This document shows, in pieces, positions 2,747 to 53,555 of a stretch of 64,000 nt of DNA. The stretch lies in the NCBI RefSeq assembly GCF_040436345.1, contig NC_133235.1:20484660-20548659 (forward strand). Reading direction: 5' to 3'. A model generated the notes under the pieces. That model made no database searches and was not told the origin of the DNA. It was given only the letters and a program-made list of their open reading frames with translations. This stretch comes from Pagrus major. Lineage: Eukaryota; Chordata; Actinopteri; Spariformes; Sparidae. The position numbers and the translations under genes are program-made. How positions within the stretch are numbered: position 1 is the first letter of the stretch; each line of letters opens with the position of its first letter.

Positions 2747-2988
2747 GGGATCATCCCTATGTTCCCGGGTCCTATGTTCCCCGGGTCCTATGTTCCCCGC
2801 TTTGTATGTGACTGGGGAACATAGGACCCTTTTTCTAATAAAGGGTCCCATGTTCCCCGCTGTTCACCCAAAGGGTCTTATGTTCCCCGCTGTTGCCGGT
2901 TGATGAACAAACTGGGGAACATAGGACCTTTTTTGGGAAAAACGGGGAACATAGGACCCGGGGAACATAGGTACGCTCCCGTTAGCTT
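2739..2988. mobile_element. Foldback MITE-like element made of 12-bp modules
   Basis: The element body is 2747-2980 (234 bp). The 8-bp direct repeat GTTAGCTT lies immediately on both sides (2739-2746 and 2981-2988) and reads as a target-site duplication. The ends are inverted (GGGATCATCCCTATGTTCCC against the reverse complement GGGAGCGTACCTATGTTCCC). Inside, the module CCTATGTTCCCC or a close variant occurs five times forward (2755, 2771, 2787, 2847, 2877). It occurs four times inverted, as GGGGAACATAGG, at 2814, 2914, 2944 and 2960. The whole element can fold into nested hairpins. There is no coding capacity. An 8-bp duplication would suit a hAT-type superfamily, but this is inference and I cannot name the family. 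Confidence 0.7.
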
Positions 2989-4740: not shown

Positions 4741-7142
4741 AAAAATGTAATATAGATAAAGTTATAATTATTAACAGCCTGTGGAGTGTGGTGGATGTGC
4801 AGAGGGTTGACTGTAACCTGTCTGACTTGTCCCATCAGTACTAACCTCAACATAGCAAACAGTGATGTTTTCACAGCTCCTGGTTTCACAGCTACTGAAC
4901 AATGACTTAAAATCTGAATATGAAGTAGATTGTGGTGAATAAACTGAACTGTCATCAGTGAAACAAACCTACAAACATTTATTCACATCTTAATAAATAT
5001 TCAATGTTAGAGTTCTGTGATTTTTGTCATTGTTGTTGCATAAATCTGCATTTGACATTCAATTTCCATGTTCAGTAATAGAATGCAAAATAGTCTTCAT
5101 GCTGATTTATTTGCATTCTCTGTACATTTGGATAATGTTGTCCTGTGCAGAGATTAGCAAACTTAAATTCCAAATTCATACTAGCAGGCATGCCTGTTGT
5201 TGCAGATTGGAGGATGAAAGTGGTGGACTTTTCAACAGTAATTGGCTTTCAAGTGGATGGTAGAATGCACAGCATAATGCAGTGAATATTAATGTGGAGG
5301 AGTAATATTTGAGGCGCTGCTATGCACTGCACTCTCTTTTTTGGGGGCCTTTGAATTTGACTTATCAATTGATGTTTTGAAAAATTCCTGGCCTAAAACA
5401 CCTCTGGCTTATAGATTACTAGACTCTTTCCAAATAACTGACAGTGTCATAACTGCATATATAACTAGTCCATATATGTTTGTAAAAGGAACTTAACACT
5501 GTAGAGATGCAACATAACATATAGGCTAGTCGACTCTAATGCAGCTGAAACAAGAGTGAGGAGCTTTTACTTTTTAAAATCACAATTCACAGTAATGTTT
5601 GATGTATGTGCCTATCGTATACAGCACTAGATATAATTCAGCTCTCAATCATAATCTATGCTCTTCCTTGGCCCTCTTTATTTGATCATACTTTGTGCAA
5701 ATGCTTTTAGGTAGAAATACTGTTGAGCAAAGGTCAGATTGCTTTTTTGCACATCCAAGAAATGTGTTATGTGTCTATAAATGCACAAAAGCTTTGTCTG
5801 GGATAATGCACATTAAAATGTTAAGCACTGGGAGAAATGATCAATGTGATCGAGTTCGACTGTATGGATCACTCACTGATACCAGGATTTTTGATGGCTG
5901 AAACACAGAGAAATTTTTTTTTCTCATCAGTTTTAATCTGAATTGTTTCATAACAAGCTTGCCATGGTTTAGCTTGGTTCACAATGCACAGTCACAAACA
6001 ATGTGATTCATACTGCTGGTGTGCTGCGCTGTATGTCTGCTGTCACCAAAGATGTGTTGCAAAAGCCTTGACAAAATCCTCTATACAAAAGTTAACCTGA
6101 TTTGACAAGTAAACATCTTAATTTAGTGAGTACAGAGAAACAACACAGCAGCACTACTCCCGCTCTCACTATGTGGCTATACGTAAAAGATGTTGGATAT
6201 TAATGTGCTATAATTACAACAGTTCAGCGAAAATTCCTATGACAAGCAAACCGCCCTGATATGATGTAGAGCTAAAAGGAGCAATTACGGTAAGTCATTC
6301 TTTGTGATGCCCAAGTAAGTTATGCAGATTTGGCAAGCACCTCAAAGGACGGATTGCCCTGTTAGGAACTGAACCCTGCACTAAAGCAGTCGACATTTAA
6401 GAGCACATACATCATGAAGTTAAAGACGGAGCAGCAGAGATGCAACACTGCACTGAACAGAGCAGCACCAGCAGGAGGGAGCAGAACACAAGCTGAACTA
6501 CTGATTAGACTGAAAGTGTGATCCTTTATAGCTATCCCAGCCTCTAATAACTTTGTTTTACTATATACAACGTTCTGCAGCTTAAACAAGTACATTGCAA
6601 CTCATACAAAGTCAATGATTAGAACTTTTTGAGTAGCTTAGATGTGTGTTACAGGCATATTTTTAGCCCTAAATCACAGTACACATCTCATCACTGTTTC
6701 CCACAGAATGGCCATGCACTTATGCCTTGCCTTTCTGTTTCTCTCTCATATTATGTTCTGCTGTTCTGTTGACTTTCTTCATCAACAATATGTTTTATAA
6801 AGTCACCCAACAAACACACCCTACGCTTTGGACTTTTTCATCCGTAATTCCATTTACACAACAGCAGGTGAGCCGCATATATGGGAAGCCTGTTGTTAAA
6901 TATGTAGCCTATTGAAACCAACGTGGTATCAAACAGCATCGCAGGACTACATCAAATAGAAGAGGTTGCGTCACAATCAGTGCGTTTACAGGAGGGATGT
7001 AGCCTCCTGTAAACACAGGTTTAGAGTGAGGGCAGATGGTCACCTAGTTAAATTTATAGCAAATGGTGTCATTCTTTCGGGTAGTTAAAAAATGCTGCTA
7101 AAAAATATGCTTCAGTGTGAATATATTCAAAGAAACAACTGC

Positions 7143-7174
<32 letters not shown>

Positions 7175-7177
7175 GTA

Positions 7178-7237
<60 letters not shown>

Positions 7238-8046
7238 CATACATACATACATACATACATGTATATATATGTATATATATGTTATATACACAAACTGTTA
7301 TATTTGTACACCAAACTGTGAGACAACTTGTGCATTCTGCAACTACAGTAAGTAATCAGTGCGGGTATCAAACTGCGCTTTGTTCTATTAACCTCCAAAC
7401 CCTGCAGAATAAAAAATAAAACAATCACTGCATGTCGCCTTTAGCAATATGTTAATATGAAAGGCTGCGATAAACAGAACAGGCAACATTTTTCTTTTTC
7501 TGTGACTGTCAGACAGACATATCAGTGTAGTAGATGTGCACACAGTCACCTTTTTTCTTCTCTTCACAGATGAAATAAGCAAACAGCAGAAAAATCTGCC
7601 AGACAACAGAGAAAAAGATGGCCTTCACAATACGGTCAACCAATAGCTGCTATACAACGTGTGTGGCAGTTGCTGCAAATGACCTTGCATAAATGCTGTC
7701 GGAGATAAAGGCCTATTCATATGTAATCTGCTGCTCTATATCTGCTGTGCACTCGTGGAGAACAAAATTGAGAGCATCCAAGACCTTGGACACAGAAATG
7801 GGAATGTGCTGAAGAGTGTTAGCAGTAATTACATATTGAAACTGTAACACTAATGTATCATTCATCAAAACAAATGTACCCATTTCTTAGAGAAAAAGAG
7901 ATATTTCAGTAAATCTATGAAGTATCAGAGGGTCAGGTCAGGTTTTTACAGCAAATTCTTTTCATATAAAACCTGAAGATAAATAACATGGATGAGTTTC
8001 TACTCTGCTGCTCACTTAAATATGTCCTGCCAAATATACACTATAT
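4741..8046. other. Non-coding stretch, no gene recognised
   Basis: Apart from the TA-rich microsatellite at about 7142-7280, this stretch holds no reading frame or RNA that I can identify. The short frames at 5024-5263, 5695-5901 and 6362-6595 show no known domain. Confidence 0.5.
7142..7280. repeat. (AT)n / (CATA)n compound microsatellite
   Basis: A long alternating TA tract with interspersed GTATAT passes into a CATA tetranucleotide run at about 7232-7260. The Tyr/Ile-rich frames on both strands are translation artefacts of the repeat. Confidence 0.9.
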
Positions 8047-8295
8047 TGGGGCACCACGTTATGGTCAAAAGAATTATATTGCGATTATTTAATTATTTGC
8101 AATTGTGATATGATTGACAAGGAGTGAGAATGATGGGGGGGGGTTTTCAGTGAAAATTAGAACTGTGATGCAAAAATTAACATCGTAATGATTAATATTT
8201 TGCTTTTATCCAAAAATTGCAGAATCTTGCAATCTGTATATTGCAGTTAGCCATATTGCGATTTTGATTGTATTTCAATTAATTGTGCAGCTTTA
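8047..8295. mobile_element. Short TIR-type DNA element relic
   Basis: The left end resembles GGGGCACCACGTTATGG and the right end reads AATTAATTGTGCAGC. The interior has ATTGCGATT and its inverse, and CAATTGTGATATGATT. A diverged relative lies near 11920-12191, sharing the CAATTGTGATATGATT core and the CCATATTG...TGTGCAGC right end. The family looks like a common teleost non-autonomous DNA transposon. I do not have a name for it. Confidence 0.5.
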
Positions 8296-8750
8296 CAGTA
8301 TATAAATTATAAAATGGAAGCTGACCAGATGTTTGTATTTTTGTGAGCTGAAGTATTTTGGGTGTATTGTATAACAGATAGAAATGTTTTCTTTTATGTT
8401 TTGTTTGTGAAAATTTGAATAAATAACTGCAACTTGCTAAAAGGATTTAAATAATGAGTCCAGTCTAATAAAGCTGTTACTGCTACAGCTCCACTGCTTA
8501 TTAGAGTTGTGATGTTTTTTGCTGTCACACTACTGTTCATTACTTTTACTTTCACTCTACAACACAATAGTCTACGTGATAGAGTGATGTTGCAGTAACT
8601 TTATCACATCTCCTGCTTACTTGCTATACAACCCCGACTACAAAAAAGCTGGGACGCTGCAAAATGTAAATAAAAACAGAATGCAATAATTTGCAAATCC
8701 TTTTAGACCTATATTCAATTGAACACGGTACAAAGACAAGACATTAAAAG

Positions 8751-9550
8751 TAGGGATGCTCCGATCAGGGTTTTTTGCCCCCGATACGAGTCCGAGTCCT
8801 TTGATTTTTGAGTATCTGCCGATACCGAGTCCCGATCCGATACTCTTATAATACATTTAAAAAATTAAAAAGATCGAAGAAAACTATCCAAGGTGTCCCT
8901 TATTTTTTATTATATTTTAATAAGTAACATACACAACACATCATACACAATTTTGCATGCAAGCAGTGCTTGAACATTCTCCAGTCAAAACAGAAAAAAT
9001 ACTCTTCACATTAGAACGTAGTGCAACTTAGACTCAATAGTCTCATATTAAAACAAACAGCATCTTAACTTAAAGTGCTAGAATAAAAATAAATACAATA
9101 TAAAATAAAACAAATGAGCCAGGTGTTTGTTTTTCAAGTGTCGAATTAAGTTTGTGGTATTAAACGAAGCTTTGTCCTTACCACCCCTCGATATCCCAAA
9201 TTTACATATCTGACAGTTTGCAACTGCATCGTTCTCGTCACTCACTTTAAAATACTTCCACACAGCAGACATGGTGCGCCACAACTCGCCACTCCGCTTC
9301 AAAACAAACTGGCGTGCTGGTCTTCTGCGCATGCGCATGTCGTAAACGGTGGTAGTAAATACTCATTTTATTTTTTTTTATTTTGAATCACCAATAGCCC
9401 ATATATCAACAATCTAATACAAATAATGACTAAATAAATATATATAAAACCGATCTCTGATCGGGTCGTAACGTCCGAGTCCCGATCGAGTCTTCAGTGG
9501 CGTGATCGGCCCCGATTTCCGAGTCACGTGATCGGATCGGTACAACCCTA
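8751..9550. mobile_element. Non-autonomous hAT-type transposon, 800 bp
   Basis: The ends are TAGGGATGCTCC (8751) and ...GGTACAACCCTA (9550), in the inverted TAGGG/CCCTA form typical of hAT elements. A perfect 8-bp direct repeat, ATTAAAAG, flanks it at 8743-8750 and 9551-9558, the hallmark target-site duplication of the hAT superfamily. Sub-terminal regions carry repeated CCGAT/ATCGG motifs on both sides, possible transposase-binding sites. The minus strand retains a BED zinc-finger remnant, but no catalytic hATC domain is present. Confidence 0.85.
9078..9338 (-). pseudogene. BED zinc-finger remnant of a hAT transposase
   Basis: This 86-codon minus frame contains MSAVWKYFKV, then ANCQICKFGI with the CxxC pair, then NLIRHLKNKH with the His pair. 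That is the BED-type zinc finger found at the N-terminus of hAT transposases and ZBED proteins. The frame stops soon after the finger, so the DDE/hATC catalytic part is missing. It lies wholly inside the 800-bp TIR element, on the strand opposite the host genes. It is probably non-functional; a small peptide cannot be excluded. Confidence 0.7.
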
Positions 9551-10014
9551 ATTAAAAGTTCAAATTCATAATCATTATTGTTTTTTGTACACTCATTATG
9601 AATTTGATGACTGAACCAAGCAAAGTGAGAAGAACAAATGTGCCACAACTTTCTTGGAACTGAGGTTGTAGGATTATTTGTGATATGGATGAATCTCAAT
9701 ATTGAGTGGAGCCTCAGTAGCATTTTTAAAGCCAATATAACTCAGCAAAGCATTGGTATGATATAATAGATGAGCATCATAAAGTGCTTTACCAGAGAGA
9801 GATGTGTTTGTATGATGAAACATACCATTTGTGTTCAGTTCCTTCAAGTGCCTCAAATCTCATCAATCAAATAGATAAAATGTCAGCGATATAGAGGCAA
9901 AGACACAACAGAGACGCATCATCACACAATATGGCTACATCTTTGAATCGTGTTACTGGCTTATACTTTAAACTGGTTTGTCAGTGTGAGGGGACATGTC
10001 AATGATATAAAAAG

Positions 10015-10715
10015 AACTGCAAATGATTAATCAATTTGTCAACTATTAAATTAATCAACAACTATTTGCAGGATCAAATTTTTAGGGATGCACGATATGG
10101 ACTTTTTAGCTGATACCGATAACCTATAATTACCTGCATCTCACGGCTGATACCCATAACAATTTCAGATCTTTGTATTTTAAAAATAAGTTCATAACCT
10201 GTAGTATATGCACCCCTGAGGGTAAAAAGGCTTAGATGTAGCGGGCAAATATGGATGATTTATTATTCATAGTTCTAATAAGGTTTATTGTGTTAAACTC
10301 AGACTTTTTCCCATCCTCTTAAAACACTTGCAGAACTCGTATTGCAAGTTTCAATTGTGTTGTCTTCTTCTGAACTTGAAAAACAATGACTCCAGCGACG
10401 ACATGTGTGGCTTGTGTCTATATGTCGTGCATCCCTACAAATTTTTCAAAAAAACAAAAAAACAGGTCAAAATTCTTTGATTTCAGCATCTTAAATGTAA
10501 ATATTTTCTGGTTTCTTTACTCTTCTATGAAAGTAAACTGAATATATTTGGGTTGTGGACAAAACAAGACATTTAAGGACATCATCTTTGGGAAAACCTG
10601 ATAAACATTTTTCACCACTTTCTGACATTTAACAGACCAAACAACTGATCCGATTAATCAAGAAAATCCTCGACAGAATAATCGACAATGAAAATAATCA
10701 TTAGTTGCAGCCCTA
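10015..10715 (-). mobile_element. hAT-like teleost repeat, interrupted by a second element
   Basis: The right end TTAGTTGCAGCCCTA (to 10715) and the interior blocks (GACAAAACAAGACATTTAAG-type region, CATTTTTCACCACTTTCTGA, AATCGACAATGAAAATAATC) belong to a repeat widespread in teleosts. Another copy starts at about 63852 in the opposite orientation. Imperfect 8-bp flanks (ATAAAAAG at 10007-10014, ATAAACAG at 10716-10723) match at 7 of 8 positions. It is split by a 355-bp insertion at 10083-10437. No coding capacity. Confidence 0.65.
10083..10437. mobile_element. Small hAT-type MITE, 355 bp
   Basis: The left end TAGGGATGCACGATATGGA and the right end CTATATGTCGTGCATCCCTA are inverted repeats. 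A perfect 8-bp direct repeat, CAAATTTT, flanks it at 10075-10082 and 10438-10445. The interior (GCTGATACCGATAACC and similar) is non-coding. Confidence 0.85.
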
Positions 10716-11825
10716 ATAAACAGGAGATCATGTTAAACTGAAATCAGAAAAATGGTCATGTGGTCAAAGTCAGTAGATTCCAACATGTTTTTAAAATAAA
10801 ATTAGGATGTAATAGGTATGCTCTTATACTGAATGACTCCAACAATCGCACACTGGGGACAATTTAGATGTCCAACTCTTCATCCCTCATAATAAAAGAA
10901 TATCTAGTAAAGAAAATACAGGCCTGGAGCAGGACCATTTTTATCCTAAATATCAGCATTAAAATCTAACACTTATCAAGATGTTCTACACATAAAAGTG
11001 TCCAGAATCAAATTTATTGAGGTAAACACACAATTACTAAACAAATAAGCCCAGATACCAAAATAAGAAATCATAACAACATCAACTAAAATTGAAATAC
11101 GGCACATTATATGTACAACATCAAGAGGGCAGACGAACCCACTAGGGGGCCTTAAAGCTGCACCACTTTGCATTTATTGAATGCAAAGTTATTGTCAACT
11201 TTATTGTAGAGTATGTGAATTTTTCTGATATCTGAATGTGATGAGAGGATAAATTGAGAATGTGCATAAACTATAATCTGCCACTGAAAGCATAAAAACA
11301 ATCATTCACAGAAAGCTGAAAAACTCCTGGGAAATTTGTGCAGTAGTTTGTTTGGACTCAAAATAGTTTATGCACCAAGTAAATGCCCACACACTAATTT
11401 AGACAAAAATTACCCTGGGCTTTTGAGGCTGGAGTCCTCGGCCTTTAATCCAGCCTTGCTCATAATACCATTTATTTCTAGTAAGCACATCCTCTGTGTA
11501 TTTTAATCTATCTGAAAGCAATGCAAGCCTTCAGGTGGATCAAGAGTGGGCTCACATAAACACTGAATATGACAGCTCAAAAGTCTTTTTCTATGAATAT
11601 TATGGTATCTAAATACACCTCTAGGTCTAAAATAGTTTATAAGCTTCAAGCTACATGGAAGATTACAAAGGATTACAGTGGGATCTACAGCAGGTATACA
11701 TCTGCCATAATAGGATTTCATGCAGCCTAATAACTGGTGCAAGAGTGCCACCCAGTGGACACAATTATTAAATGTAAAGGTGTAGACTCTTAGTATAACT
11801 CAGCCTCTGTTTATCACATTAGTGC
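10716..11825. other. Non-coding, nothing recognised
   Basis: AT-rich sequence with no identifiable gene. An 82-codon minus frame at 11503-11751 shows no known domain. Confidence 0.45.
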
Positions 11826-13030
11826 CTTACACAGTGTTGTAAAAAGTACCCGAAATAATACTTGAGTAAAAGTATAGATATCAGGTCTTCATTATTACTT
11901 AATCCTATTGTGGCTATTTTGACAGATTTTGCAATTGTGATATGATTTACAATTAGTGGGAATGATAATTTTGCATCAACATTTTCATTATCACTGAAAA
12001 AAAAAAACTCTATTAAAATAATTTGTATGCTTTTGTTTAATCATTGTTATGTTATGACCAGGGTATCCCTGCAGCACCACAGTACTTTATTATAATACAC
12101 ACATTTTACCACATTTTATCTTCTGCAGTTAGGATTTTACACTTGGCCATATTGTAATTTCAATAACATTTCAATGAATTGTGCAGCCCTAATATTAATA
12201 TTACTTGAGTAAAAGTCTTATAAAGCATCTGGTATTAAATGTATGAAAGCATAAAAAGTAATTTTCTGACATCAAGGATACTTAATTATCAAAAGTACCA
12301 GTAAAAGTAAATCATACTTACATGTATGGAAATATTGTATTGTATGGGTCAACCAATTATCAGCCTGGCTGATTATCGGATCCAATATTGAGCATTATTC
12401 TGAACTCTGCAAAGTAACTAGTACGGTTAGCAAATATCAAGTGGAGTAAAAACTACAGTATTTGCCTCCAAAATGTAATTGAGTTGAAATATATAGTAGT
12501 TGAAAATGAAAACACTCAAGAAAAGTGCAAGTGCTTTAAAATTGTACTTCAGTTCAGTGCTTTAGTGAAAGTATTTAGTTACATTCCATCACTGGCTGCA
12601 AGACTGCAATACAAAAATAACATTACAGTGTTGTTTAAAGTACCCAAAGGTCATAACAACGTAAAAATAAACAATGTCATGTTAAAATATTATTTTGTAA
12701 AAGTGAAAGTCATCTATATGAATAGTCCTTGAGTAAAAGTCTTATAAAGTCTTGGATACTACATTAAGTTTTTAAAGGAATTTTATGGCAATAATTGCAG
12801 ACCTACTCAAAAGTACAAGTAAAAGTAAGTTATACATATATTTACATGTATGTATATACTGTATATTATGGGTCACCTGGTCGATTATCATATTCAATAT
12901 TCAGCATTTTTCTGATTATCGTAATCAGTGTTGTGTTTTGTTTTTATGTGACTGTCGATGAAATAATTCAATTAAAAAATGCACAACTCTGGCTTGGATG
13001 CAGCCTAAAATCTTCAGAGTAACTAATAAC
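11826..13030. repeat. Cluster of diverged ACTTGAGTAAAAGTA-type repeats
   Basis: Blocks such as ACTTGAGTAAAAGTATAGAT, TTACTTGAGTAAAAGTCTTA and CTTGAGTAAAAGTCTTATAA recur at about 11850, 12200 and 12725, with AAAAGTAC-rich spacers. A relic of the family at 8047-8295 sits inside (about 11920-12191). The ACTTGAGTAAAAGTAC motif is a common component of teleost repeats. No gene is present; the short frames at 12484 and 12795 are within repeat DNA. Confidence 0.6.
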
Positions 13031-13399
13031 TTAAAGGTGCAGTATGTAGTTTTGGGGAAGAAATCTGAATCAATAAATAAAGATCTTTTTATGCCAAAAC
13101 AAACTAAATAAACAAACTTTCTTTGTTTTCATGACTGAATAAACAAACTGACTTTAAAGGACAACACAATTTCACTGTTTTACCGTTTATATTTGGCGGA
13201 TCCTGCCACCTTTCTAGCCTCAAACAGTGTTCTGGGGGACTTATTTTTTATTTCATTTTTGAATTTTACCGAAAAACAGCTTGTTTATTCAGTTATGGGA
13301 AATATTAATATTTCTGACTTGTATTATGGCCCTTATTAAATATAAAATATTGAAATTCTGAGTTTTAATTTCTTCTCCAAAACTACATCGCGCCCCTTC
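13031..13399. mobile_element. TIR MITE of the AAGGTGCAGTATGTAG type
   Basis: The left end AAAGGTGCAGTATGTAGTTT and the right end CCAAAACTACATCGCGCCCC are imperfect inverted repeats, about 18 of 22 matching. The interior is AT-rich and non-coding. It sits inside the ACTTGAGTAAAAGTA repeat cluster, whose sequence resumes at about 13405. Confidence 0.6.
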
Positions 13400-13716
13400 A
13401 GTAGAGTACTTGTGTAAATGTACTTAGCAACCTTTGATCACTGGCCTTACAATACTGCAATACAAATTTCAACCAAAACACTACCTGCCTGAATAAACAC
13501 TAAGACGTTTTACAGTCTTATTCCTCCTCGTGGTGATTAGGCTACTGATCGTCCGAAATCAAAGCAGGTGATCTAAATCAGTCACTAATGAACGCGGGCT
13601 ACATAAACAGCTGCAGGTGAGCCAGAAAACTGGGATAGTTATTCCTAAACTTACACGATAAAGCATCTGACGAAAGCAACTTTGTCAAAGTTCACACATT
13701 TAACACAGTTGCAAAA

Positions 13717-14170
13717 ATGACTAACGACATATCTAAAAAGAAAGGAAAGAGTTCGAGTGAGAAAAAGGCGAAAAGAAAGGCTAAAAGGAGAGAGACTTAC
13801 GCGATGTACATCTATAAAGTTTTGAAACAGGTGGGTGACAAAAAAAAAGAAGAAGAAGAGGCTTGAACTGCTTCGGTTTTCCTGTCTTAAAATTAACCAC
13901 CAGCCATTTCCCTCCCCCTCTTCCTTCACAAAGGTCCATCCGGACACGGGGATTTCAAGCAGAGCCATGAGCATCATGAACTCCTTCGTGAACGACCTGT
14001 TTGAGAGGATCGCCACGGAGGCGTCCCGGCTGGCTCAGTACAACAAGCGCTCCACCATCACCAGCAGAGAGGTGCAGACCGCGGTGAGGCTGCTGCTGCC
14101 CGGGGAGCTGGCCAAACACGCCGTGTCCGAGGGCACCAAGGCGGTCACAAAGTACACCAGCTCCAAATGA
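13717..14170 (+). CDS. Histone H2B variant with one intron (H2B.K-like candidate)
   Basis: This encodes a core histone that pairs with H2A in the nucleosome. Exon 1 is 13717-13830 (residues 1-38) and exon 2 is 13934-14170 (78 residues plus TGA), giving 116 residues; canonical H2B has about 124 to 126. The 103-bp intron has GTGGGT and a CAAAG acceptor, is phase 0, and falls exactly between YKVLKQ and VHPDTG. The histone fold is complete, including [26 protein letters not shown] and the C-terminal [10 protein letters not shown], which keeps the ubiquitin-acceptor lysine. The short basic tail starts [14 protein letters not shown] and is unlike canonical PEPAKS-type tails; RRETY replaces the usual RKESY. 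No histone 3' stem-loop follows the stop, so the mRNA is probably polyadenylated, as in replication-independent variants. It stands alone, without other histone genes. The human H2BK1 gene is, as I recall, also at 7q36.1 with the asb10-gbx1-agap3 block, so orthology is plausible but unproven. Confidence 0.88.
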
Positions 14171-15460
14171 AGACTTCAACGCACTCCGAACTGTTAGGAC
14201 AAATGTGCATGAGTGGCTTTGTAAGCTGGTTGATTTCTTGATTTCTTTAAGTGCATAAAGATTATTTTTTTTGGTTCCATGTTTTGATTCCCTTTTTTCT
14301 CCATTTAATGAGGGGGGAAGCTGTAACATGTCGTATTAACCACTAGATGGGGTAATTGCACAACTGTACTGCAGCCACATTGACTCAAAGCATTGTCTTT
14401 TTGATAAACAGACGTATAAACGAGATTATGACACGCATAGGGGATCTATCAGCTATGGTTAATGCAAGTTTTTGGTGCATTACAGCTCGAAATTTGATCA
14501 AATCAACTGTACACTGTTATAATAAAGCACAGGCACGAGATCAGTATCATGCTGCATTTATCTTTAACACCTATTAGGGGTGCAAGACATAAAAAAACGG
14601 GCATTTGTTGGGGTCAGTACCAAACAGACATGTTTTCCCACATCTGGAGAGCAAGATTTGCAGGCCAGTGCATCTCTGCAGCAAGATAATCCTGTTTTGT
14701 CACCTGTTTTTGCTGCTTCTTGTGATCTAGATATTGCATTGGCCATGTTGCAATATTCATATTTTGGTTTTGTTCAGCCCTTCTTATTTATTTGCACAGC
14801 ACTATTATTAGATAATAATTAGCTCTCAGATTATGCTTGACAGTCTGAACACTTGCACAGGGGTTTTTGAAAGACACATAAAAGGAAATTAAATTGTGTC
14901 TCTAATCAGGCATGTCAGTTATGTCCCTATCATGGTAATTATTTTAAGACAACAGCTAACCCCACATTGTCAGCATAACAGAAAACAGTGTGACAGCGGA
15001 TAACAATGTGACTCTTTAGTCAGTGGCCTACATATTTTATCGCCTAATGGATACTGATCACAATAAACCAGATATTAAAATATTAAATATTATTTCTGAT
15101 TACAGGAAACACAGTGATCACACACTTTGTTTTGAATCCACATCTGCACATCATCATACCCTCCTACCAATCCAAAGGCACCTGTGTCTCCTGACTTAAC
15201 AGAAATAGACAGGGATGCACTCAGTGCAGCAGCCATGACAGATGTGGTATTAGCCAGGTGACTGCGACCTGGAAGATTGATAACAAACCTAAGCTAACAT
15301 AGAAACTAACAAAGCTATAACTAACAGCAAGTCACATAATCTCTACTCGGTTTTAGCACTTTCTCTCCTTAATTTAATATTTCCCCTAATCAGAGACCTC
15401 TTAAACCTGATGAGGAAGCTTTGAGAGTCCACTGATACGACCACTACTTATACAAGCCTC
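14171..15460. other. H2B 3' flank and intergenic DNA
   Basis: AATAAA at 14521-14526 is a possible poly(A) signal for the H2B variant, about 350 bases after its stop. The stretch at 14575-14790 (GGGGTGCAAGACATAAA, TTGCATTGGCCATGTTGCAA) looks like a worn relic of the element family at 8047-8295. No gene was recognised in the remainder. Confidence 0.4.
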
Positions 15461-15770
15461 TTGTATCATGGCAAATCAGTGGCTACAGCTAGCATGCTTA
15501 CAGCTAGCCTTCTTGCTAGCGGACATCGTAGTCCCACTTCAATGATGATTACAGGTAAGGCTAACGCTAGCATTTGTGTTGACACGTCAAATTTTGAAAC
15601 AAAAAAAAAACATAGTTTGAGGACACTTACCTATGTTTTTGAAGACATCTCTAAATTTCTCAAAGTTTCCATCTGGCTGCGACAAAACAAATATCCCGCC
15701 TGCCTGCAGCAGCAACTTCACATTAAAAACAAAACGACAACTTGATATTGACGTTTCAACTGTTGAAACA

Positions 15771-15788
15771 AAGATGGCGGCCGGAAGT
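15771..15788 (+). promoter_or_regulatory. YY1/ETS-type composite promoter motif
   Basis: AAGATGGCGGCCGGAAGT joins a textbook YY1 site (AAGATGGCGGC) to an ETS/GABP site (CCGGAAGT). This pair is typical of the transcription start of TATA-less housekeeping genes, with the ATG inside the YY1 motif as initiator. The plus frame from this ATG (15774-15860) reads MAAGSKLSCQCLAKLEKLYD and a few more residues to a stop, and no family is recognised. On the minus strand an open frame continues to a GTAAGT donor at 15629. The site may belong to an unrecognised gene or to a repeat. Confidence 0.35.
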
Positions 15789-15860
15789 AAGCTTTCCTGC
15801 CAATGTCTTGCTAAATTGGAAAAACTGTATGATAGGTTATTTAAAAATATATATATTTAA

Positions 15861-18800
15861 AAAAATATGAACATAGATAGATAAATTTGAAATATAATTA
15901 GTATTTAAGATAAATTATTGGTAATGTGTTTTACAACATGAGAAAGAAGATTATCTATCTGTGCTTTGCTCAACAAAACAGCCAAAACAACCATCAGAAA
16001 TTAGTAAAAGAAATCACATAATCAAAGCTGTTGTTTACACTGGGGAAGTTGGGGACATAAGCATAATTAGTTAAAAATGTGCTTGCACAAATAAATGTTA
16101 ACTAACAAATGGGATTGCATTCATTTTGATGTGCCATTAAGCATTTTTTCCCCCACATTATTACATTGCCTAAAATCACATGTTGAAGACCACTTATTTT
16201 ATTTATTTTTTCTATCTGAGGCTTTGTGTTCCTACAACTTTTCAACACAGTAACGCCCTCGAGACTGGTATATGTGAATATCCATGAATATAAATTATTG
16301 TCCCTTAATTTTGAAATAATTTGCTCCTGAAAAATCCTTGAACTGTATCATTTTAAAAATGTGCCAACCCAGCTTATATTATAACATTACTTGTGACGTG
16401 TTTTCTGTTCCTACTGTTGGTTGTCAGTGATATTATCTCAGCCCTTACGTCCCCACCACTTTTCAACACAAATTGACGCCATCGCACATATTTTCTTTTT
16501 GCCAGTTCAATAAACAAGTCTTTGAGGGATCTAGAAACGTCTTCAAAACAGCAGTAAAATAGCTTTCAAAGTTTGTTTTTTATGTTTGTGAAAAACAGGT
16601 GACCTATAACCATCCTTCATCTCCCTTGTAAAGCGACGAATACATGAAAGGTCCAAACTGTTTTATTTTTATTTCAAAATATACTGACACAGTGTTCTTT
16701 TTTAAAAGTGATCTTTATCACCTCTGATGCATTCATCCAAACCCTGACAAGATCCATTATTCAGTTAGCTTTAAAAATGGACATATTTATAAACTGACAG
16801 GGGAGATAATGCAACATTGTATGCTTGTTATGTATTCTAATCAGACGACACTGTCAACTGAATAGTACTTGATTACAGGATAATCACACTAGCGTTTGCA
16901 CCAGTCCAATCTGCATAAAATGGAGGAACTGATAAAGGTCTCTCTAATTAGAATGGTGTTTACATCAGGCTTTACATACACCTATTAGGCGACCCTTGTC
17001 AACATCCTACTAAGCCGGGCTCACTTTAATAATGCACTTGGATGTGACTCCCACCACTGACTGTTATTGTTGAGATATCCATTTTAGATGTTTCCCAGCA
17101 TTCTTGGTAATGATATGAAATCTACAGATGTTATTATGAGGGTGATACAGTCTCTGATGGCAGTGACTTTGTTCATGATTATCATAGCCATTTAGGTTTT
17201 GTATCTTGCACCCTTTCCCATATCCCCTCTCATGCCCATGCCAAGCGGTAGTCATCGCTGCCTCCTTTAGGCAGACTGCTATGAACACATTATGGATGGG
17301 TGCATTAGTGAGTGATGCAGAGCACGGGCTGGCTTGCCTTGTTTTCGTGTGAGAGTGCATCATTAGAAAATGTTCCACTTGGCAGGGAAGCGCGTATTAA
17401 CTGCAACCGCAATGAAATGAGGTTGTGATAGATGGTTAAAGTTATACAGGACTATTAGGTTGAAATATGAACCTCTCAATTGTCATGATGAAACAGAGGG
17501 CTATTTGCGTGGTGATCAGTGCATTGAGAGACAATTGGAATCTGCAAAGACCCATACAATACATTATAGGTAGTGGGCTCAGAGTCGAAAGAGTACAGAA
17601 AAAGTAATCATGCTTCCACAGAATAGTTTGGAGCTACTGTTCAATTCAAGGCTCTATAAATTCATTTAGGTTCTCCACCAACATCTCGAGCATCGTGATG
17701 AAACCTGAGGGAGATTTGCAAACGGGGCACCTTTTTTTTAGCCCTATTGTTGACTCTGATGAGCCATATATATGGACGTAAACCAGTGTTGATTGGCCAT
17801 CAAAGGTCTTTTAATGGCATCAAAGACTAAGAGCAGACTGTGTGCGTCTGCCTTAATGTGTTCGTATGGAGCATCAGAGTCAATATGATATTTAGAAAAT
17901 TACAATAACCCAAGATGTAAATCAGAATGAGACGATTCCATAAATGCAGCGACTAGCTTCCCTTTAGATAGTGTAGCTAGCCAATTAAGCAAACTCATTA
18001 TCATGTTTCCATGGTGACCTCACAGTTATTCCGCCAAACTTCAGACCCTGTTTCTCTTTAACTCCCGACATGTGAACTGAAGTATGTAAATTGCATATTA
18101 ATTGCTGTACAGAATATACCAGACAGGATCTGACTTCCTCTGATAGGAATAACAATAAGTATCACATAAATCATTAAAATAAGAAACACCTGATGGATAA
18201 TTGAGTGCTCTGATGTCGTGGTGAGGCGCTCTCTAAACTTAGACTTTCTTTGGGTGCACTAGACTCCGTCTTAAACTAACAACAGATCCAATTGCAAACC
18301 CATTAGCATTTAATATTACTGTAATTACTGTGTACATTTCATTATGTTCTCAGTATATTAAATGACTGCTCAGTGTGGAGGGAGGGCTATAGTTTAATCT
18401 CTTTCTGTATTACTGTGTGCCACAGTACTCAAAACAGCATTAAGAGGCACATAATCAGAGGGAACTAATTGCCTATGATTGCATAAATGAAGTGCCTCAC
18501 TCTCATCAGGGCTGTTGCTGATGTCCAGCCTCTCACCGCCTTGGGAGAGGAAGGCGGCTGACCACAATGCAGAAAACCTCAGAGAGACAGCTACTGGTGG
18601 GTAATGTGAGGAAACCAAAGATTTAATATGTCCACGGGGGGCTGTGAGGGCAGGGGGTGTTACTACTGCTGATGTTTTTTTGTTGCCATCAGAGTTGCCT
18701 CCGCTTCACAGATAAAAAAAAAAGAAAAAGAAAAAAGAAACATGAATGCCCACCATTTGAGAAATGAATTTATCGAAGTCGCTGTCTTTTTCCCCATTAG

Positions 18801-19820
18801 TAAGTGTTTAGTTCAGCGTTTTAAATAATTGCGTTACCAGGAATGATATTTAAAATACATTTGGGAGTCAATGAGGCGGGAAAGTGCCTACATGTTTTGC
18901 TGATGACACCCGGGCCATTTGGAAGACATCAAAGTAGAGAGGAGGTAGCCCAGATGCATATTATAAACTCATTATGTATATCATTTAAAAGGATGTACTC
19001 CAGCCGCAAAAACAATATTCCTAGTCTCTCTCTGGTAATGTGTGTTTTCAAAGTTGAAACTCTTACTCGCCTTCAGTTTAATGTGGCATCTATTACCAAA
19101 CTGTAACATAAAATAAATGACCTTGATTTCCATACCAGAACAGTCGTTAAGGTATAGATGAGATGCAGCGATGCTTCTGTTTTCAAATGGGAGAGAAGGT
19201 AAGACCTCCCCGCGTATATCATGTATTTCTTCACCTGTGGTGCACACCGTGTTTTCCACAGAGCTTACGTACATCTTGATAGACTCCAACACAGACGTGG
19301 GTAAACATACATTAAAATATGTATAATACAGCAAATTTTGGCACGTGGTGATTTCAGAGCTTAAGTCAATCAGTATCAAAAGACTCAAAGGTAATTCTGA
19401 GCCATCCTCGCTCACCATGAGAACCTGTTCTTAGTGTCTCGGGAGTTTGAAGATGGGATCAGTGAAATTTCCACTAGCTCTGGAAAATGGCGGTCCATCA
19501 GTCAAAAGAGATGTTTGTCAGAAGCTTAGCGAGTAGGCTTAGCAGGCTTAATTATGCGCCGTCCCCTCCGCCATCAGAACACTACACGTGGGGCAGAGTG
19601 ACACAGCGGTTGCCAGTCATTCAGCCTAATGTTCTAATGGAGGGAGCCATGTGGATACATAAAATCCATTAAGGCTCTTGAATAAAAAAAAAAATACTGA
19701 GCTGAAAAAGACATTTTGCAAACACACACTCACAGGGGCTTACAAATAGCGCATTCTTATTTGCTCTTCCTCTGAGGAAAAAGTCGAGACAAAATTTGAC
19801 CTTAAAAGTTGTTGAAATGT
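15861..19820. other. Intergenic DNA, candidate conserved non-coding region
   Basis: No exon was recognised. From about 16900 to 18650 the sequence is free of obvious transposon ends, of mixed composition and rich in TAAT/ATTA cores (for example TCTCTAATTAGAATGG near 16943, AATTAGTATTT-like and GCATATTAATTGC). This is the look of developmental cis-regulatory DNA near a homeobox gene, but I cannot measure conservation. The frames at 18981-19418 (minus, 145 codons) and 17064-17378 (minus, 104 codons) show no known domain and no splice support. Confidence 0.35.
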
Positions 19821-20777
19821 TTAAAGGTCCAGCGTGTAGGATTTAGTGGGGTTTAGGAGGATCCATTGGCAGAAATAGAAAATATATATAAATATGTTTC
19901 CAATAACTTATGGAGTTCACCATGTTGCACCACCACGTTTCTACAGTAGCCCAGAACAGACAAACCAAACCCTGGCTCTAGAGACGTAAAATAGTACATA
20001 AAAATGGACAACGCTTTTCCTCTTCCTCCGACGACACAAAAATGAAACCAAAATATCCCGGATACGAGTCACGATACATCTTGCGCTGGTGATGTTGTTT
20101 GGAGCCAGAGCCTGCACAGTAGTGATCAAGCCACGGTATCGAGTTCCAGCCGATACACTCGCCCGACTCAGCCACGAGCAGGGCTGTCAATTAGAGAAGA
20201 TACATCAATGTGGTAAGAACTACCCAAGATAACTAACAAATCCTCATACCTAAATAACTGAGTGGGTAGATTGCCATTCACTCCCAAAAAAACACTGTTC
20301 CCAAAACAACGTACCAGTGACAGACATACCGGACCTTCGTTGTAAGCTCACTGTTTGGTTAGATTTAGGCGTAAAGTTTCACATGTGACATGAACAACGT
20401 CCACCTTGGTGAAAGTCCTGTGCTGGTTTGGCTCATTGATCCGTCCCCAACCTCCTCCCTAAGTGGAGTAATCGCTCTTTACTTTCGCCCGACTTCCTCC
20501 TTTGCTGCTGTATGAAAATTAAAGAAATCATTTTTGGGAATATTTGTTTGGTGTGCACTATGAGTTTTTAGTTTGGCCAACATGGAGGAGGATGTACTTA
20601 TGACCTATACTGTAGCTAACCACCAGGGGGCGATCAGCATGTTTTGGCTTCTCTCTTGGGGAGCTGTCATCATTATTTACAGTCATGCTTTTTAGTGTAG
20701 GGTAGGGTGAGGTGAAGGGTATTTTGTTCTTTTCGGTCTGCAACCTCATTACTAAATCCTTCACAATTGACCTTTAA
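19821..20777. mobile_element. TIR element of the TTAAAGGTCCAGCGTGTAGG type, about 957 bp
   Basis: The left end TTAAAGGTCCAGCGTGTAGG (19821) and the right end TAAATCCTTCACAATTGACC followed by TTTAA (20777) are inverted repeats of a family I know as abundant in teleosts. Near the right end ACCACCAGGGGGCGATCAGC also matches that family. The short Glu- and Cys-containing minus frames at 19941-20190 lie inside and have no transposase motif. It lies upstream of the distal asb10 exon. Confidence 0.6.
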
Positions 20778-21433
20778 GTCAGCTGTTGCTTTTTAACTTA
20801 TTCTTGAGTTTTACAGTGAAAACCCTGTTGAGAATGGTCATGTTAATGTTAAAGGTTTAAAATTCAATGACTTGACCCTTTACTGACACTATTCTTGCCC
20901 AACACTTTCTAGAGTAGATGAGGTGGAAACATAATAAACTCTGGAACATGTATTACTTGTATGTGCTGAACCTTAAAATTTGTAAATATAAAGCTACATA
21001 TATTTTTTTAAGGACGTTTAGTCTAATAAGATACTGTGTATTTAAAAAACAAAACAAAAAACATGTTCCATCACCCCAATAACAACATGTATTGTTACTA
21101 CATGAGTTTATTCAACTCATTTGATTTGTGCAGCCTGACAGAGACGCTTCACGACTGTGACTTTGCTGAAGGCAAACAGGGGAGGCTCGAGTGGCTGCAT
21201 GTGAGACATAAAAATAGCATTACTTGTCACACTGCAGGGAGGGTCTCATACCGAATATCAAAACAACTCTGTGAACCAACCCTGTGAACAGCCGGCAGGC
21301 ACATAGTGGACATTAGCCAGAGAGAGGCAAACAAAAACAGAAACAGAGAGACAGGCCCTCTTAGACATCTCCCTCGCTTAATCATACACATCTCAAGCAA
21401 CCACTTTTCTCCTCGAGAGGCAAGCCATTCAGC
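20778..21433. promoter_or_regulatory. Upstream region of the distal asb10 first exon
   Basis: The last 400 bases before the ATG should hold the promoter and 5' UTR. An AT-rich MEF2-like site, ATAAAAATAG, lies at 21208-21217. No clear TATA box at a defined distance was identified, and the transcription start is unknown. Confidence 0.3.
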
Positions 21434-21758: not shown

Positions 21759-24700
21759 GTAGGAGAGCTGTCTTCATTATTAATTAATTCAGGAATTCAT
21801 ATCATTTTACAGAGCTATGTAGCTTTATTTAATTTCCTGGTGATTAGCATAAAAAATTAAGGCCTTTAAAAGTACCTTTTATTTAACAGAAGAGGCAAAA
21901 ATTACCTGTGTGTCTGTAAAAGAGAAAGTAAATCACTGTTTTAAATTTATGTTAATTTATGAGGAGTATGTAACTGGTACATGTGTTTAAAGACACAGTG
22001 ACTCAGTATTTATAGAAACAGAGCACGTGGCAGTATTTATAGAGGCCATCATATGTCCTCCACATAATCTGGATTCAATGTGGGCTCTCACTGAAGACAA
22101 AACAAGCACTTTGCATTTTTATTTAGTGGAAGACTAACATTTTGAGTCAGTTTTGGCTTGTTGATGACCTGGAAAATCATTGTGTTATTCTTCTCCTAAG
22201 TTTACTGAATGCAACAGAGCACTGTCCATTGACTTAGTGGATTTGCTGAATCAGTGGGCAGGTGACATGTCACACACCAGTCATTGGCTCCCGACACTGC
22301 GCTGGCAAAGTTCCCCAGGTCAACCAAAATATCACATCACACCGCCCTGAAATAGAACTGTCTGCACAAACAACCTACAGAAGTGCTTATTTCCTTCAGG
22401 AGAAACCACCCTTTAATAAAACTTTAAAACAAAAAATCTAGTTAGCTCCAGTATGGCTTATGTAGCACCTAAGATTAAATGGCGCAAACCAAAGACGTAC
22501 CGCCAGGACGTGATCGCCACAGCCAAAGCCACAGGTTGTGTCCTGCAGTTTTGGAACGCTCTACTTGTTGGTGATGAGCTAACGATTCTCAGCATCGTGG
22601 TGGACGACGAGTACGACTACCTTATTGATGCCATTTATGACACCAGCAACGTAGAGGAATGGAAGAACTTCAGATTTAACTACAGATGCCTGCGTAGGTT
22701 TATCAGAACTTTGATTTTTTCTAAAAGTTATGGTCTTACTTTTCATCGGGGTATCAGGGTGTTTTATCGAGTGTTATTGAGTATTAGGAAGAGTCATGCA
22801 ACTACTTATGCTTTGAAAAGTGTTTTTTATGATCCTAAGGGTTGAGCTCAAAGTTGACATTCTGCCAAATGTGCTCCCCTGCTGGCAGGACTGTGGTCAC
22901 TGAGTTATGAGCAGGAGCTGACCACACCGCTTCACATCACAGCCGGCCGAGGCTTCACGGACTGCCTGAGGCTCCTGCTGCAGCGTGGGGCCAATGTAGA
23001 CCTGGCACCTGGAGGCAACACCGCCTTGCACGAGTCCTGTGAAAACTGCCAGCCAGAGTGTACCAAGCTGCTGCTCATGCACGGTGCTGATGCCAACGCT
23101 GTCTCGGAAGAGGGCCTTATGCCTTTGCACATTTGCACAAGCCCTGAATCCCTAGAGTGAGTAGATCAGAAGTGCATGAAGTGCTTCATGTAACGCAGGG
23201 GTTTCCAAAGGGTATGTAGAGAGATTGTGGAATAGCTCAGCTAATTTGAAAAATGGCTCATGACTTGATATTTAGCAGCCACTGTGGGTAAATGCTAAAA
23301 CATTTTGCCTGTGTAAAAGTAGCACAAGAGCACAATCGACAAGTCAGTGAATTCAATCAGTTATGCCAGTTATACCATAATTTTACTCTTACTTTACTCT
23401 AAATGTTCTAACCTTAGCTAACATTAGCCGTCCTTGACTTGGATTGAAATGAGCAAGGGTGTATTTATTGCTAATGAACTGAACTTTTGTAAGAGAAGGA
23501 TTGTGTACACCAGCAGCTCCTGTTGAGAGTGCTTTGAAACTAGCGAGCAGTCAGAGATGGTAATGGATAGCTAAAAGCGCCGCTTATAATACAGTGGTCA
23601 GAATAGAAATTGATTAAACCCACTTGAAAAACTAAGTACCCACCCTAAACTTTCACAAATTCACGATCTTGTAAGAAAATTAGTATTATAATATCCCCTT
23701 TTATAAAAGTTAGGGTGTCAAACAACTTTTCAACTGTACGTCTCTTAGCGTTTCCCTGCGGTATTACTGTTGGCGCAAATGCAGTGTTAGCAGCATGGCT
23801 ACTGCCAGCAGCCTGGCTACCATCCAAAGAAAAAAACAACTGTAAGAATCTAAATTTGACCAAGAAGCGCTGATCTGATCATATAGCTACTTTGTAATTT
23901 CAGAAATAATTGGGAAAACAAGGTTTATAGGGAACAAATCTATACAGGGATGGTGTAATTTTTCTACAGCCATTACAGTGTGCAGTCAGTAATTACATCG
24001 TGTTGATATGTTAAAGCAAAAAAGTTTTAAATGACAAATACATAACAACTTCAGTACAAATTAAGCTTCTTTAATTCTGCAGATGTGCCAAGTATCTCCT
24101 TCAGTACGGTGCAGCAATCAACGGTCGCTCTACCGATGAAGATGACACTCCCTTACATGTGGCAGCCAGGAACGGCCTCCCAGACCACACTGAGATCTAC
24201 CTGCGCTACGGAGCTGCTGTGGACAGACAGAACGATGAGGGTCTCACACCCCTGAACGCTGCTTGTTCCCAACGCCAGGAGCTGCAGGAACTTCAGCGTT
24301 ACTTCAAGACGTGCCAGATCCTCCTGGGGGCGGGGGCCAACGTCCACACAATGGACCAGGACAGAAACAGTCCTCTGCACATGGCCTGTAAGAATGCAAA
24401 TTCAGACATAGTGGATCTGCTGCTGGCTAACGGTGCCCGCGTTAACGACATGGACTACGGCGGTGAAGCTCCCATGCACAACATCCTGAAGGTGGTGTGC
24501 TACAAGATTTCCCATCAGCCCGAGAGGATTGTCCGCGCTCTGCTCAACCATGGTTCTATTCGGGTGTGGCCTGGAGCTCTGCCCATGGTAGGAAATCAAA
24601 TGCATTTCAGACTGGATAAAGCATTCCAGATTGGTTTCTAGTATATTGTATTTGCAGTATGAACCAATTATTCATCAAGGTGGCTCATTCTGCGTAATTA

Positions 24701-26220
24701 GCAAGTGCTGCACATGTAACACCTTTAAAAGAGTCTTGAAACACTAAACTGTTCCTTCCAGACTTCACAACTTCACATTCACATCATTCCCATTTCATGA
24801 CACAACATGAAGTGTTGCACTCTCTGCGGGAAACAGACTACAACTATCAGTGAACCCACGTGCACTAGACAAAATGCCTGGTTCCTAATTAGGCAAGTGT
24901 TAATAGGAGATTAATTAGCACTAATTGCATAATTTCCAGTTAAACCCCTGGAGGGAAGACCAATCTGTTCATTTCACAAGTGTTTAATTACTTTATTTCT
25001 TCAGTTCTATGCAGTCACAAGCTCGCTCACGAACTTAGATGATGATTATATGGATGCTGTCTCTTTGCTCGGTGTTGTGCCGTTTCTTTTAGGTTATGAA
25101 GCACTGCTCTGCGTCTCCACGCACCATCGAGGTTCTTCTGAACGCCTACAGTCACCTCAAAGTCACAGACACCTGGGTGGAGTCTGTGTCGCCGGAGGTG
25201 TTCAAGGCAAGCTCATTAAATAATGGAATTATGATTATGGTTCAACCACTGTGGGTGTTTTATGATAAATGTTTTTTTTTATTGTGCCAAATATTTTATT
25301 TCTTCATCTTCTCTCTCTTCTTTAATTTCTATAGGGTGTTTGCATGGCCAGATCTAGCATGTTTAGGGCACATTGTCTGGACATCAGCGAGAACATAGAA
25401 CAGGGATGATTGATATTTTTTCCCTTGGAGTACCAAAAATAGCAAACACCTATTGTACTGTACTGTGTGTTAAGCTAAAAAATGGCATTAGGATCCCAAG
25501 TTCCTTTGAATTTTTGCACAAAGAGTCACTTTGCCCTCTGCGCTCAGATTATAAAAAATAATCAATAACTACTATCATTTTTTTTTTCGTTATGGTACCA
25601 CATGCCCCACTTTGAACAGCCCTGTCATAAAAACGCCACTAAAATCAATGCTGATTGATTTCATTTTGATAGTTTAACAGCTCTTAAACATGGGGTGACC
25701 CACCACATATATTGAGTAGTAGAAGAAACTCTGAGATGTGGCCTTTAAATACAGAATCAATTTACAAAAACATAATGATGATTATATGAATAAATGTACA
25801 AAAAGATGTAATGTCTTTTGCATATTGTGCAGGATGTTTGAAGCTGTCCTGGGCAATATTCAGTATTTGTAAGGGGATAATATCTACAGCAGGCCATAGC
25901 TAATAGTATATTTAATTACTTACATGATGTTTATTTAATTATTACTGCTTATTGATGTCAGAACACCACTATGATTGGCTGTGAAGTGAGACAAATCTCT
26001 GATCTCATGTTTATCTGTGCTTTTATCCACCCAGGAGCACAAAGAGTTCTACGAGTCGATCTTCTCTCTGGCGATGACTCCTCGCTCCCTGCAGCACTTG
26101 GCACGCTGCAAGCTCAGGACCTTCCTGGAGGGCCGCGTACACAAGGTGGTCCCTAAACTGGGTCTGCCCACCTTCATCAAGAACTACCTGCTGCTGGAGT
26201 ACAGAGGCTACATCCACTGA
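21434..26220 (+). CDS. Ankyrin repeat and SOCS box protein 10
   Basis: Predicted substrate receptor of a Cullin5-Elongin B/C ubiquitin ligase. The distal-start form uses exons 21434-21758, 22889-23156, 24083-24587, 25093-25206 and 26035-26220 (465 residues). The proximal-start form uses 22453-22693 in place of the first (437 residues). Both first exons end in phase 1 and join exon 2 in frame. Ankyrin-type units run from TTPLHITAGRGFTDCLRLLL through NTALHESC, MPLHIC, TPLHVAARNG, TPLNAACS and SPLHMACKNA to APMHNILK. Then comes RALLNHGSIRVWPGALP, a segment typical of ASB10/ASB18. The C-terminal SOCS box has BC-box SLQHLARCKLR (residues 394-404 of the short form) and Cullin-box LGLPTFIKNYL. Length and exon joints agree with my memory of human ASB10. 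The intron after 25206 appears to use a GC donor. ASB18 is the close paralogue; the adjacent gbx1 favours asb10. Confidence 0.9.
22004..22055. promoter_or_regulatory. Duplicated TATTTATAG motif around an E-box
   Basis: CAGTATTTATAG occurs at 22004-22015 and again at 22031-22042. CACGTG lies between them (22024-22029) and CATATG follows (22050-22055). The AT-rich motif differs from the MEF2 consensus at one position. The cluster is about 400 bases upstream of the proximal asb10 exon and could serve an alternative promoter. Function is inferred. Confidence 0.3.
22453..22693 (+). CDS. asb10 proximal alternative first exon (1b)
   Basis: Starts MAYVAPKIKWRKPKTYRQDV and ends in DEYDYLIDAIYDTSNVEEWK, then NFRFNYRCL, with donor GTAGGT at 22694 in phase 1. 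The final codon completes as CGA, giving RLWSLSYEQEL across the junction. That arrangement (a WRDFRFN-like motif before LWSLTYEEEL) is what I recall of human ASB10. The open frame runs on to a stop at 22843-22845 if the 195-bp intron is retained, which would give a truncated 130-residue product. Confidence 0.85.
22889..23156 (+). CDS. asb10 exon 2 (ankyrin repeats)
   Basis: Acceptor GCTGGCAG and donor GTGAGT bound this exon, which begins in phase 1 and ends in phase 2. It encodes LWSLSYEQELTTPLHITAGR onwards, with ankyrin consensus blocks LRLLLQRGANVDLAPGGNTA, TKLLLMHGADANAVS and EGLMPLHICTSPESLE. The following intron is 926 bp. Confidence 0.9.
24083..24587 (+). CDS. asb10 exon 3 (ankyrin repeats)
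   Basis: Acceptor ATTCTGCAG and donor GTAGGA bound this exon. It continues CAKYLLQYGAAINGRSTDED, then TPLHVAARNG, TPLNAACSQR, QILLGAGANVHTMDQDRNSP, DIVDLLLANGARVNDMDYGG and RALLNHGSIRVWPGALPM. It ends in phase 0. Confidence 0.92.
24896..24937. promoter_or_regulatory. Homeodomain-type TAATTA cluster in asb10 intron 3
   Basis: CCTAATTAGG, ATTAATTAGC and CTAATTGCAT lie within 42 bases (cores at 24896, 24922 and 24932). Such TAATTR cores are bound by Antennapedia-class homeodomains, including the GBX type. The intron is otherwise unremarkable. Confidence 0.3.
25093..25206 (+). CDS. asb10 exon 4
   Basis: Acceptor TTTCTTTTAG precedes VMKHCSASPRTIEVLLNAYS; the exon ends VSPEVFK in phase 0. The donor appears to be GC (AAG|GCAAGC) rather than GT. 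The only in-frame GT alternative, before GTGTTC, would remove VFK and has a poor consensus. Confidence 0.85.
26035..26220 (+). CDS. asb10 last exon (SOCS box)
   Basis: Acceptor TTTATCCACCCAG precedes EHKEFYESIFSLAM and then the SOCS box, ending YRGYIH and TGA at 26218. The BC-box binds Elongin C and the LP-containing Cullin-box would contact Cullin5. Confidence 0.92.
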   Translation, partial: EHKEFYESIFSLAMTPRSLQHLARCKLRTFLEGRVHKVVPKLGLPTFIKNYLLLEYRGYIH

Positions 26221-28868: not shown

Positions 28869-30460
28869 ATGCAGCGACCAGGCGGCCAGGGGACGGCGTT
28901 CTCAATCGATTCCCTCATAGGGACCCCTCAGCCCAGACCGGGACACCTGCTCTACACGGGCTACCCCATGTTCATGCCGTACAGACCTTTGGTTATCCCA
29001 CAAGCTTTATCCCACTCTCCTTTATCGTCTGGTATACCTCCACTCGCACCTTTGGCTTCTTTTGCGGGACGCCTCACGAACACGTTCTGTGCCAGTTTGG
29101 GACAGGGGGTGCCGTCCATGGTCGCGCTCACCACGACGATGCCGAGTTTCTCCGACCCTCCGGACAGTTTCTACCCGCCACAAGAGCTCCCGGGTCCCCG
29201 TCTGAGCGCCGCCGATCCCGGAGCGAGGAGGCAGGAGAGTCCGCACTCCGAGGAGCTGCACAGCCGGGACAAGGGCTCCGAGCTGCTCAACTTCTCGGAA
29301 ACTTTTCAGACAATATCAGGTGAGCTGGGCCTCGTTACTTTTTTCATGATATTTGATCAAATCCACAACTCAAGGCTGCTGCGTAAAAAGTGGCCACCGT
29401 GCGTAAAACGGGTTAAAATAGAGATCGGTTGTGTTTGGTGTCAGAAATGCTCTCAAATTGAAAGTAGAAGCCATCTTACATCAGTTTTGTCAACGAAATA
29501 TTAATAATGCAGCATTTGTTATAGTCGAAATTCTTGGGGATGCAACCTGATTATATTTGAGCTAAACATTTCAAAGAACAGTCATAGAAATTATTCCTGA
29601 ATTGTTCTTCACTGATAAATGCTGAGCCACATTTTAAAAAACTTTAGTAGAAGTATTTTGTAGGCAGACCTGAATTAAGTTGCCAAAAACGCAGCAAGAC
29701 GCGTAAAAACTTAGAGAACAACTCAATGTTCACAGCTGTAAGGCCCAACATGAGATCAGTTAATGTTTCTACTCGTGCGAAACATTTTCAGCACTTATTT
29801 CTTGGCTATTAACTTTATCAGCCTCCTTTAAAAAAAGACAATGACTGATGTGTATTGTCGTGAGACATTGCGTAATGGTCCTTTTTGGCAACACAGACTC
29901 ATGAAGTGACTCAACGTGTGTTTGTTCTTTCTTCGCATTTTCAAGGTGAGACCAAACTGTACAGCTCAGACGACGAGAAGCTGGACCTAAAATCGGCAGA
30001 CACGGTGTGCAGCGACCGGGAGGACAGCTCCGCGGACAGCGAGAACGAAAGTTTCTCGGACGGGAACAACTGTGGCTCCCTGTCCCAGAAGAGCAAACTA
30101 AAAACCGGCTCGCAGGAGGCGCTACCGACCGGCAGCTCGGCGGGGAAGAGCCGGAGGAGACGAACAGCTTTTACCAGCGAGCAGCTGCTCGAACTTGAAA
30201 AGGAGTTTCACTGTAAAAAGTACCTTTCTCTGACTGAACGCTCCCAGATCGCGCACGCACTCAAACTGAGCGAGGTGCAGGTGAAGATCTGGTTTCAGAA
30301 CCGCAGGGCCAAATGGAAACGGATCAAAGCCGGCAACGTTAACAACCGGTCAGGAGAACCGGTGAGAAATCCCAAAATTGTGGTCCCCATCCCGGTGCAC
30401 GTCAACAGGTTTGCTGTGAGGAGTCAGCACCAACAAATAGAACAAGGGACCAGGCCATGA
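28869..30460 (+). CDS. Homeobox protein GBX1 (gastrulation brain homeobox)
   Basis: DNA-binding transcription factor of the Gbx family, involved in neural patterning and acting in the nucleus. Exon 1 is 28869-29319 and exon 2 is 29946-30460, separated by a 626-bp intron with GTGAGC and TTTTCAAG, phase 1. The product is 321 residues. The N-terminus [18 protein letters not shown] carries the Eh1-like FSIDSLIG motif, which binds Groucho/TLE co-repressors in this family. A Pro-rich region with [20 protein letters not shown] and [17 protein letters not shown] follows. An acidic Ser-rich segment ([16 protein letters not shown]) precedes the homeodomain at residues 219-278. The C-terminus [20 protein letters not shown] and ending [11 protein letters not shown] is of GBX1 type, not GBX2. 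The in-frame TTG four codons upstream of the ATG is not the start. Confidence 0.96.
30149..30328 (+). other. gbx1 homeobox (Antp-class homeodomain)
   Basis: Encodes 60 residues containing [20 protein letters not shown] and [14 protein letters not shown]. Trp48, Gln50 and Asn51 are present (residues 266, 268 and 269), which predicts TAATTA/TAATTG recognition. It is entirely in exon 2. Confidence 0.96.

Positions 30461-40048: not shown

Positions 40049-53555
<13,507 letters not shown>

Follow-up and report, generated by a model that had tools for sequence, protein, structure and literature searches.

A solitary, intron-split H2B gene of Pagrus major that is very probably an orthologue of the histone variant H2B.K

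The histone variant H2B.K was named by Raman et al. (2022), who describe an intron in all orthologues, trace syntenic orthologues to bony fishes and include zebrafish among the species searched (PMC8857922). Its expression is reported mainly from ovaries and early embryos, with records from ovary and oocytes in mammals, ovary in chicken and testis in pig (PMC8857922). Fish are listed among the animals that have H2B.K, and H2BE1 is given as the former symbol of human H2BK1 (PMC9526256). The human gene, whose protein is UniProt A0A2R8Y619, lies at 7q36.1 (PMC11742582), where it is directly adjoined by ABCF2 (PMC9526256), and the wider 7q36 region includes GBX1, AGAP3, ASB10, ABCF2 and TMUB1 (PMC8484335). 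On cattle chromosome 4 the gene order, with micro-RNAs omitted, is ASIC3, CDK5, SLC4A2, FASTK, TMUB1, AGAP3, ASB10, GBX1, IQCA1L, H2BE1, ABCF2, CHPF2 and SMARCD3 (PMC7655849), and the corresponding turkey region holds SMARCD3, CHPF2, ABCF2, ASB10, GBX1 and AGAP3 (PMC8470100).

In the 64-kb stretch of Pagrus major DNA analysed here (the window, C21:20484660-20548659), an H2B protein of 116 residues is encoded on the plus strand by two exons at 13717-14170 (Table 1). The preliminary description had proposed a 103-bp phase-0 intron after YKVLKQ, and the two-exon reading with its GT-AG borders bears this out. Scored with a simple splice-donor matrix, the donor ranks 15th among the 3431 GT sites of the window; without splicing, the exon 1 frame enters the intron for 11 codons and then meets a stop. 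The exons are unequal in composition, third-position GC rising from 0.50 in exon 1 to 0.86 in exon 2.

Table 1. Coordinates of the H2B gene and its neighbours in the window
Feature	Positions	Strand	Description
Exon 1, very probable H2B.K	13717..13830	+	38 codons: 24-residue tail, start of histone fold, end at YKVLKQ
Intron	13831..13933	+	103 bp, GT-AG, phase 0, borders CAG|GTGGGT...CACAAAG|GTC
Exon 2, very probable H2B.K	13934..14170	+	remaining histone fold, C-terminal helix with conserved lysines, TGA stop
Candidate poly(A) signal AATAAA	14521..14526	+	first after the stop, 351 nt downstream
Ankyrin/SOCS-box gene (putative asb10, by position)	22858..26193	+	ankyrin repeats; SOCS box about 26077-26193; span bounded by the first ankyrin ORF and the SOCS box, excluding the undefined 5' end
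gbx1 homeodomain ORF	29876..30460	+	Pfam Homeodomain; best PDB match GBX-1, E 8e-39
ArfGAP/ankyrin gene, part (putative agap3, by position)	40049..52599	-	ArfGap about 52366-52599; ankyrin ORFs at 40-41 kb

The protein matches the Pfam Histone family (PF00125) with an E-value of 2.6e-24 and aligns without gaps over 93 residues to the H2B of PDB entry 8grq. Its core is identical to human canonical H2B at 81 of 92 residues, and this identity together with the Pfam E-value places the H2B match beyond chance. The 11 core differences from the human protein are K34R, S36T, S38A, V39M, V41I, K57R, G60S, I69L, G75T, H82Q and I94V; Drosophila H2B differs from the window protein at 8 positions of the same core. 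Ahead of RETYAMY stands a basic N-terminal tail of 24 residues with a net charge of +9, and the whole protein carries +15 versus +18 in human canonical H2B. The full fold, the C-terminal lysines and the short tail agree with the preliminary reading of an intact fold behind a diverged tail.

Two hallmarks of replication-dependent H2B genes, the lack of introns and a 3' stem-loop, are both missing from the window gene. A histone stem-loop pattern gave no match on either strand of the whole window; the same pattern, applied to the other H2B genes of the genome, detected a stem-loop 22-31 nt past the stop in 22 of 23 intact copies, so that its failure to match here carries weight. Rfam models returned nothing at gathering score on the window, and a permissive scan of 14150-15200 gave six matches, all with E-values of at least 1 and none a histone 3' element. 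The 133 nt downstream of the stop fold no better than shuffled sequences (z +1.44). When human H2A, H2B, H3 and H4 were searched against the window by tblastn, the sole significant locus was the H2B gene (exon 2, E 2.2e-46); the best H2A match had an E-value of 1.2, and no H3 or H4 line appeared at E ≤ 10. Pattern, Rfam and tblastn results over the window thus concur with the earlier claim of a solitary gene that has no stem-loop.

The surroundings of the gene fit the synteny of the mammalian H2BK1 block, with an ASIC gene on one side and the ankyrin/SOCS-box, gbx1 and ArfGAP/ankyrin genes on the other, the ASB, AGAP and ASIC assignments being made at family level. Domain and PDB matches uphold the location beside ASB, gbx1 and AGAP genes given in the preliminary description. 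Upstream of the gbx1 homeodomain, an ORF at 28851-29501 without a Pfam match is presumably the first exon of gbx1. The ASIC exon lies on the minus strand to the left of the window, less than 1 kb from its edge, and its best PDB matches are ASIC1 entries, whereas the cattle block contains ASIC3. Four motif patterns, ABCF signatures included, detected no ABCF2-, CHPF2- or SMARCD3-type neighbour in the window and the 60 kb upstream; unlike the human and cattle H2B.K genes, which ABCF2 adjoins, the fish gene thus has no ABCF2 found beside it, and the local gene order differs. Elsewhere in the window, six-frame Pfam searches of 1-13700 found nothing except a BED zinc finger, in an ORF at 9081-9362 on the minus strand that is probably a DNA-transposon remnant, and four of six frames of 14169-21272 gave no match.

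We then compared the gene with the H2Bs of the same genome (786 Mb, 25 contigs). A protein search returned at least 28 matches at E ≤ 0.01, and of the 28 listed, 23 are intact H2Bs in a single piece, two are the exons of the window gene, two are pieces of a decayed copy of canonical type and one is a weak match (E 0.0097). The 29 genomic stretches examined resolve into 23 intact H2Bs, one decayed copy, four that match H2A or H3 best and one without a significant match. All 23 other intact frames are intronless, and the window gene is the sole exon-split H2B among the matches listed. At core sites 36, 39, 41, 57, 60, 69, 75 and 94, the residue of the window protein occurs in none of the 23 copies. 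Over 92 codons, dN between the window gene and these copies is 0.095-0.105 and dS 0.755-1.34 (ratio roughly 0.08-0.13), and this low dN relative to dS argues for strong constraint on the fold. At C13:16321500-16323200, a second H2B shows no stem-loop match in the 250 nt after its stop; it is intronless, encodes 126 residues with a canonical fold and N67 as in human, has an AATAAA about 270 nt past its coding frame, and is possibly a replication-independent H2B of canonical type.

Could the gene be a canonical H2B specific to this fish lineage, which left the clusters and gained its intron later? Only 10-12 of 92 core residues separate it from the 23 copies, one of which shares Q82 and four of which share R34. 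Yet it keeps N67 where 22 of the 23 have S67, and its intron and location agree with those described for vertebrate H2B.K (PMC8857922; PMC7655849). The tree also speaks against such an origin: among 10 distinct rows over 92 columns, with a midpoint root and a bootstrap that is unsettled, the human canonical protein lies together with every canonical H2B of the fish on one side of a branch supported at 100/96, and the window protein falls on the opposite side with Drosophila H2B. Placement inside the canonical fish H2Bs had been named beforehand as the outcome that would count against an H2B.K identity, and the opposite was obtained. We consider a relocated canonical copy very improbable. I41 and S60 are common to the window protein and Drosophila H2B and are absent from human canonical H2B and all 23 fish copies. 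On a tentative and rather unlikely reading, H2B.K would be a surviving older animal H2B lineage rather than an invention of bony vertebrates; the retention of I41 and S60 as in Drosophila would then make the vertebrate canonical H2B a homogenised newcomer.

That the gene is decaying or a pseudogene is less probable again, given a frame that stays intact across a good splice pair and the low dN/dS noted above. A truly decayed copy at C1:35.27 Mb (C1:35268467-35270697) looks quite different, being frame-shifted and lacking residues; this copy was considered as an H2B.K retrocopy and rejected, since a canonical copy matches it better (139 versus 91.7 bits). Orthology with H2B.N, the other intron-bearing mammalian H2B, finds a point in its favour in the intron reported at an equal fold position in H2B.K and H2B.N (PMC8857922), and is nonetheless the least credible of these readings. 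H2B.N is described as sharing 42.4% of its fold residues with canonical H2B (PMC11742582), as restricted to mammals (PMC9526256) and as mostly missing the C-terminal helix (PMC8857922), whereas the window protein keeps 81 of 92 human canonical core residues and a full C-terminus. On this evidence we reject the H2B.N, canonical H2B and pseudogene readings for window 13717-14170.

Taken together, the window gene is best read as the fish orthologue of H2B.K (human H2BK1), with a probability of about 0.93. Set against the published genes by their descriptions, it has the single intron inside the histone fold that is given as a feature of H2B.K. The preliminary description was right in recalling human H2BK1 at 7q36.1, in the same block (PMC11742582; GBX1, AGAP3, ASB10 and ABCF2 at 7q36, PMC8484335), and the conserved vertebrate H2B that it envisaged, with intron-bearing orthologues and shared bony-fish synteny, is already in print (PMC8857922). 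As such, the gene adds another fish orthologue to a variant already known and is not a discovery; the published H2B.K is thereby confirmed in a further fish genome, with a clean contrast to the 23 other intact H2Bs of the same animal. In two fish papers that use the gene name hist2h2l, no link to the window gene was found, and a preprint about histone mRNA of maternal origin (PMC12803260) had no bearing on the gene. The literature matches listed, which lie mostly outside subscription journals, included none on the function of H2B.K in fish. A search for H2B.K relatives in viral contigs gave five pattern matches, none confirmed by tblastn.

By analogy with the known family, the protein is most likely a replication-independent nucleosomal H2B of the oocyte and early embryo. 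The gene would be transcribed without coupling to S phase into a spliced, polyadenylated message, chiefly in the female germline and oocytes and perhaps also in testis and early embryo. Its product would pair with H2A and replace canonical H2B in nucleosomes, giving chromatin with a different tail and the usual C-terminus, and the changed tail and few changed fold residues may alter how the chromatin of the egg and early embryo is packed or modified. As mouse is reported to have no H2B.K orthologue (PMC9526256), a fish with one intact copy offers a convenient system for testing an oocyte role of this H2B.

Among the described systems, the canonical H2Bs of the same genome share the histone fold and C-terminal helix with the window protein and differ in being intronless and, in 22 of 23 cases, in carrying the stem-loop. 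The sea urchin cleavage-stage H2B is reported to group with vertebrate H2B.K without firm support and to be intronless (PMC8857922). Mammalian H2B.N bears an intron as well, but the window protein is far less diverged and has a complete C-terminus. Within H2B.K itself, the 24-residue fish tail is short and lysine-rich and contains no glutamine, in contrast to the polyglutamine tract reported from mammals, and the fish protein has 11 fold substitutions of 92 where 16 are reported for human H2B.K (PMC11742582). Like H2B.K, the Pagrus major gene is solitary, has one intron in the fold and neighbours of the 7q36.1 type, and encodes a protein with a diverged N-terminal tail and a slightly lower net charge.
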